From contig NZ_MWQK01000001.1 of the NCBI RefSeq assembly GCF_002210425.1, positions 124,001 to 188,000 on the forward strand: a stretch of DNA of 64,000 bases, in the 5' to 3' direction. The notes under the pieces were generated by a model. The model ran no database searches, was not told the origin of the DNA, and saw nothing but the letters and a program-made list of their open reading frames with translations. The first letter of the stretch is position 1. Each line of letters opens with the position of its first letter. Made by a program: the position numbers and the translations under genes. Source of the stretch: Fibrobacter sp. UWB2 (lineage in GTDB: Bacteria > Fibrobacterota > Fibrobacteria > Fibrobacterales > Fibrobacteraceae). Below, one piece after another: positions 21,374 through 21,601 of the stretch.

Positions 21374-21391
21374 TCTATTAAGGAGGCTGTC

Positions 21392-21601
21392 ATGGCTAAA
21401 AATAAAGATAAAGTGTTCAGCAAGGTTGCTGAAACCGCCAAAGAAAGCGATATGATGCGCATACGACGCATAGACGGCTCCCAAAACGGAGCCACGTTAC
21501 GGACAAGAGTTGTCCGAGACAAGACAAAGTACAACAGAAATTTGAAACATAAGAAGTCCCTCGCAGACGCGGGGGATTTCCCTTTTTTATGGGGGTGTTG
21601 A
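21392..21601 (+). CDS. ArfA-like ribosome-rescue candidate (non-stop design)
   Basis: 69 codons from the ATG that follows a perfect AGGAGG by 5 nt. The basic core LRTRVVRDKTKYNRNLKHK resembles the ArfA stretch LFRQRV...K...Y.RK.KH, and the extreme C-terminus (FPFLWGC) is hydrophobic as in full-length ArfA. An intrinsic terminator lies inside the reading frame, with the T-tract at 21583-21588 and the stop at 21599-21601. Most transcripts would therefore lack a stop codon. ArfA frees stalled ribosomes when tmRNA fails, and its mRNA is known to be made non-stop. ArfA outside Proteobacteria would be unusual; the homology is weak and could be convergent. Confidence 0.55.
   Translation: MAKNKDKVFSKVAETAKESDMMRIRRIDGSQNGATLRTRVVRDKTKYNRNLKHKKSLADAGDFPFLWGC
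21554..21588 (+). terminator. intrinsic terminator inside the ArfA-like ORF
   Basis: AAGTCCCTCGC (21554-21564) pairs with GCGGGGGATTT (21569-21579) over 11 bp with two G-U pairs, loop AGAC, then CCC and T6. The stop codon is 11 nt after the T-tract. Confidence 0.8.

Follow-up and report, generated by a model that had tools for sequence, protein, structure and literature searches.

The system closest to the locus described here is ArfA (PF03889) of beta- and gammaproteobacteria, a small protein with the basic tail R.RV..K..Y.RK.KH, silenced by tmRNA. Factors of the ArfA type are expected to fold on the ribosome only, and the N-terminal half of ArfA contacts RF2. In the arfA gene, a hairpin interrupts the open reading frame (ORF) ahead of the stop codon and yields a non-stop mRNA, a known design (PMC6299226, PMC8874680); E. 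coli arfA also contains an RNase III site, and cleavage by this enzyme is reported to generate its non-stop mRNA (PMC8874680). BrfA of Bacillus carries a terminator within its ORF and yields a product of about 62–65 aa (PMC6881298). ArfT of Francisella is a small basic factor recruiting a release factor, for which an internal terminator has not been reported (PMC6299226). ArfA has been annotated in phages earlier (PMC12753301, PMC8953757). A 2024 survey of more than 15,000 genomes detected no arfA in the Fibrobacterota–Chlorobiota–Bacteroidota group (PMC11633108), and titles and some passages of the literature on Fibrobacter and ribosome rescue apparently describe no such factor.

The window (the whole 64,000-nucleotide stretch of Fibrobacter DNA analysed) contains a small gene with a terminator ahead of its stop codon, an observation that we confirm. 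The ORF (21392–21601, +) comprises 69 sense codons, starting with ATG at 21392 and running to a TGA at 21599–21601 (+), and is preceded by the near-perfect Shine-Dalgarno sequence AAGGAGG (21380–21386, +). The start, the stop, the quoted peptide and the AGGAGG site thus stand as given in the initial annotation; the complete homologs inspected likewise carry AAGGAG or AAGGAGG ahead of their start codon. The protein consists of an N-terminal half (MAKN..RIDGSQNGA; 21392–21493, +) and an ArfA-type basic tail, TLRTRVVRDKTKYNRNLKHKK (21494–21556, +), predicted to be placed in the empty mRNA entry channel. The end of the tail overlaps a hairpin with the loop AGAC lying inside the frame (21553–21580, +), followed by CC and a T6 tract (21583–21588, +). 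The hairpin had been described as 11 bp long; it is indeed in frame, and the T6 tract does precede the TGA, but the stem has one more pair, 12 bp in all. The predicted transcript end at T6 would leave the mRNA without a stop codon, the TGA being reachable only for read-through transcripts.

Judging by eye from translations, we take the neighbours to be a divergent lipoprotein-like gene on one side and a NERD-like gene downstream, presumably with FtsH-, TilS- and MetK-like genes nearby; because of this company, the gene seems chromosomal and outside any obvious prophage. The short length of the ORF would suit a chance reading frame or a non-coding RNA, an explanation contradicted by the strong protein conservation and the conserved Shine-Dalgarno sequence, and whose probability we consider negligible.

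The 56-nt segment at 21545–21600 has a folding energy of −24.7 kcal/mol (z = −5.0), equalled by 0/200 shuffles. Other matches to a hairpin followed by T within same-strand genes of the window are few and lie 394–2233 nt before the stop, none of them near a 3′ end. Across 43 distinct homologous segments, 11.81 of the 12 positions are paired, versus 9.47 ± 0.20 in synonymous-codon redraws, the highest of 500 redraws reaching 10.07. None of the 43 segments is less stable than −14.8 kcal/mol, and 6% of the redraws reach −14, an almost complete separation of the two sets by folding energy. Pairing holds for 97.9% of the cells in 28 distinct rows, versus 43–63% after sliding one side by 1–3 columns. 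Counts of two-sided changes on these rows are by themselves not above shuffles, and for this reason the synonymous redraw serves as the main test. At columns 4–25, which are third codon positions, G-C, G-U and A-U occur and A-C never does, while the pair 8–21 varies among CG, UG, UA and AU, with two-sided changes at these columns in more distant members (U-A in L113, A-U in L115). Comparison of the homologous sequences thus shows that the predicted in-frame terminator hairpin is conserved under RNA-level selection.

T is enriched 3′ of the stem across 62 homologs. The tract is short in some of them: a strict requirement of 5 T in 8 is failed by 11/61 copies, one of which is truncated by the end of its contig. 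The T-rich stretch following the stem in most homologs, and a length of 12 bp that is short for RNase III, argue against the improbable alternative that this enzyme cuts the hairpin, instead of or alongside termination, giving a non-stop mRNA with the factor and its control unchanged. Such cleavage would agree with the stable conserved stem and has a precedent in the RNase III site of arfA (PMC8874680). Two members from other genera (L116 and L120) possess unrelated hairpins with T-tracts at the same place, in frame ahead of the stop. In another copy (L006; G004:C1:683010-683243), an insertion of nine codons, which seems to be a repeat of the KSL codons, separates KHKKSL from the hairpin, and the hairpin is still in frame.

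The portion of the protein alike between genomes comprises codons 1–65 (to ..DFPF; 21392–21586, +). Among 62 distinct loci, the hairpin codons show an amino-acid identity of 0.85, with 0.81 and 0.74 upstream of them; right after the T-tract the value is 0.09. The stop codon lies 1–76 codons past the T-tract, scattered, with a mean of 19.4 versus about 20 expected by chance. A Kolmogorov–Smirnov test rejected a geometric law for these distances (p 0.004), probably because many loci have the same downstream neighbour in common; the randomness of the stop is therefore argued solely from its scatter and absent conservation. The collapse of identity past the T-tract, together with the scattered stop, indicates that the protein ceases to be under selection at the point where transcription is expected to stop. 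The hydrophobic terminus FPFLWGC, proposed in the initial annotation as a feature of the peptide, does not hold as such: FPF alone, encoded by the hairpin and T-tract, is conserved, and later codons vary by genome.

These data also bear on a simpler explanation, namely that an ordinary 3′ terminator overlaps the coding end, with much read-through to the TGA, and that the product is a small ribosome-binding protein with another function, perhaps phage-derived. Relatives with normal stops do exist in many phages, and DUF7230, the phage domain discussed below, is a domain of unknown function. However, since neither the stop position nor the codons after the T-tract are conserved, a read-through product would have no selected form, and the design recurs with unrelated hairpins; we regard this explanation as rather unlikely.

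A single-sequence search detected the gene in 28/61 relatives, every one within the genus. The profile search found it in 66/80 genus genomes, plus a truncated relic (L118) in one further genome, and identified members in three additional genera of the family. When one genome per GTDB species was scanned, 45 loci were recovered, all labelled Fibrobacter or Fibrobacterales. The gene is not universal in the genus: 13 of the 80 genomes, including several nearly complete ones (G009, G025, G028, G124), gave no profile match. The search for the same in-ORF hairpin in other Fibrobacter genomes, suggested in the initial annotation, found it conserved in frame across genomes: among the complete copies that were read, the reading frame continues uninterrupted across hairpin and T-tract, save in one divergent paralog; L021/L064 is a copy cut close to a contig end. 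The paralog (L117 in G134:C34; MPVITITISIDTGKETPAQRKVRIAETQNGRKTRTRAIPDKRHKAPKHKKNPIDGE) has a normal stop, without a T-tract or terminator. Genome G127 carries two copies, L115 (C15) and L124 (C11), one of which is divergent and also has an in-frame hairpin (SIAEAMD). Four weak profile matches (L119, L121, L122, L123) were read and judged to be chance.

Direct searches for kinship with ArfA gave little. At the gathering score, the curated Pfam model PF03889 matched neither the window protein nor its relatives, which is the answer to the HMM search proposed earlier for the 69-aa product. NCBIfam, Pfam and PDB searches yielded no direct match to ArfA or BrfA, profiles of the Fibrobacter family matched no solved PDB chain of any kind, and BLASTP of a Fibrobacter homolog (L025) against E. 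coli ArfA returned nothing. Direct profile comparison with ArfA by hhalign was weak (28% probability), aligning the tail with ArfA FRxRV..KKGKGSYxRKxKH; the sequence RVVRDKTKYNRNLKHKK is a variant of the ArfA tail RVxxxKKGKGSYxRKxKH. An HMM of the ArfA N-terminal half (GxIKDNALxALVxxxLF) reached E 1.6 or worse against Fibrobacter members, so that the two N-halves are unrelated by this test.

The tail RTRVVRDKTKYNRNLKHKK belongs to the large phage family DUF7230/PHROG 2701; DUF7230 is named in no paper found by our literature search. The window protein scores 21.6–21.8 bits against DUF7230 (PF23876; E 2e-4), under the gathering score of 27, and 11/16 members match this domain (best E 4.6e-6); PHROGs 2701, 18092 and 6310 are matched by the tail. 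A first scan of viral contigs with the full alignment gave no match because its patterns require KHKKS[LF]A[DE] or RIDGSxNGA, and the tail pattern gave at least 120 stretches, retrieving more than 100 viral proteins. As these viral loci were chosen by a motif pattern, their tail similarity is partly by construction, and the masked tests alone are free of that selection.

Two of the phage proteins, L147 (ATN93434.1, Pseudoalteromonas phage J2-1) and L166 (from a viral contig), pass the cut-offs of both families, with 41.3 and 48.4 bits for PF03889 (cut-off 25.5) and 28.6 and 31.0 bits for DUF7230 (cut-off 27). An HMM built solely from chromosomal-type ArfA finds them among 16,955 ORFs at E 4e-13 and 5e-12, and also recovers L167, L261 and L171. 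With the selecting motif masked, the ArfA N-half HMM still matches L147 (8e-13), L166 (4e-11) and L167 (5e-4). In these viral proteins (L147:520-675, L166, L167, L171 and L195/L261) an ArfA N-half is joined to the DUF7230 tail DKTKYxRKxKHK, which suggests, at the level of sequence, that DUF7230 and PHROGs 2701, 6310 and 18092 are relatives of ArfA. When ArfA and five such phage proteins are combined in one HMM, this model matches the window protein (E 1.5e-4), and 1/169 of its matches lies outside the family. The masked HMM of the Fibrobacter N-half matches three other viral proteins (L179, L270 and L193) at about 1e-13 to 1e-12, with no other match of note outside Fibrobacterota. This N-half, which is not that of ArfA, is common to the three and to Fibrobacter, and over the full length they reach E about 1e-19.

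The protein is therefore best called ArfA-like: its tail is of the ArfA type and shared by way of phages, its N-half is distinct, and its non-stop design is a known one. The earlier ArfA assignment is retained as regards that design, the in-frame terminator, tmRNA/SmpB and the basic tail, but not as regards family membership, since PF03889 is unmatched and the N-half differs. The link to ArfA runs through profile chains via the phage proteins; the Fibrobacter protein differs in a KGKGS stretch shortened by three residues, in the sequence of its hairpin and in its phylum. The tail is the same as in DUF7230 and PHROGs 2701, 6310 and 18092; however, the viral genes, typically of 40–60 aa, have an ordinary stop without a preceding terminator in 106/107 cases. 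The ArfT tail motif, KKGGSTNKK, is unlike that of Fibrobacter.

Alternatively, this might be an independent rescue factor, with the same job and non-stop regulation but no ArfA ancestry, its tail being convergent, as in BrfA versus ArfA. The unmatched PF03889 and the N-halves found unrelated in the masked HMM test would fit such an origin, and BrfA shows that such convergence occurs (PMC6881298). In the phage intermediates, however, an ArfA N-half is followed by this same DKTKYxRKxKHK tail, which aligns to ArfA FRxRV..YxRKxKH with a three-residue gap, and we consider convergence possible but doubtful. The terminator placed ahead of the stop, together with the phage link to ArfA, makes the gene very probably an unrecorded rescue factor, and we consider it likely that its product is an ArfA-type factor serving as a back-up in ribosome rescue, with an mRNA that is non-stop by design. 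That DUF7230 and the three PHROGs form, with ArfA, one superfamily of rescue factors, whose chromosomal member in Fibrobacteraceae acquired a new N-half, a different recruitment of release factor and control by trans-translation via the in-gene terminator, seems to us an evenly balanced proposition.

The genome encodes tmRNA (tag ADENYALAA), SmpB, RF1 and RF2; no match to RqcH was found in the genome. The predicted in-frame intrinsic terminator and the size of the product have a parallel in BrfA. We hypothesize that RNA polymerase halts at the hairpin and T-tract within the frame, so that ribosomes would run out of mRNA near codon 65 and stall there. As for ArfA and BrfA, with tmRNA–SmpB working, the nascent protein of ~65 aa would be tagged with ADENYALAA and degraded; with trans-translation saturated or blocked, untagged protein would be freed and build up. 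Its basic C-terminal tail could then insert into the vacant mRNA channel of other stalled ribosomes, while the N-terminal half may recruit or open a release factor (RF2 or RF1).

The genome also encodes another release-factor-like protein, its third, which is 163 aa long and contains a GGQ (L135:1252-1743, −). This protein has a match in every genome tested and scores under the cut-offs of the ArfB, RF1, RF2 and PrfH models; it is possibly another rescue hydrolase. Genomes without the gene showed no difference in terms of an extra ArfB, three RF-1-domain matches being present in 19/20 genomes, and the release-factor set is identical in genus genomes lacking the gene.

If the proposed function is correct, the Fibrobacterota–Chlorobiota–Bacteroidota group would have its first ArfA-like factor, and a third lineage would be known whose gene senses trans-translation failure via a stop-less mRNA; a phage protein family that is very common would also gain a concrete hypothesis of its function. 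An in-frame terminator in a small basic ORF with an unconserved stop could serve as a signature for rescue factors missed by similarity searches. A gene of the tail family on a viral contig of 315 kb (L241:6619-6882, +) contains a strong in-frame hairpin of its own (GAGGCGTATGG..CCATACGCCTC) and T7 just ahead of its stop, so a virus may have arrived at a non-stop design independently.
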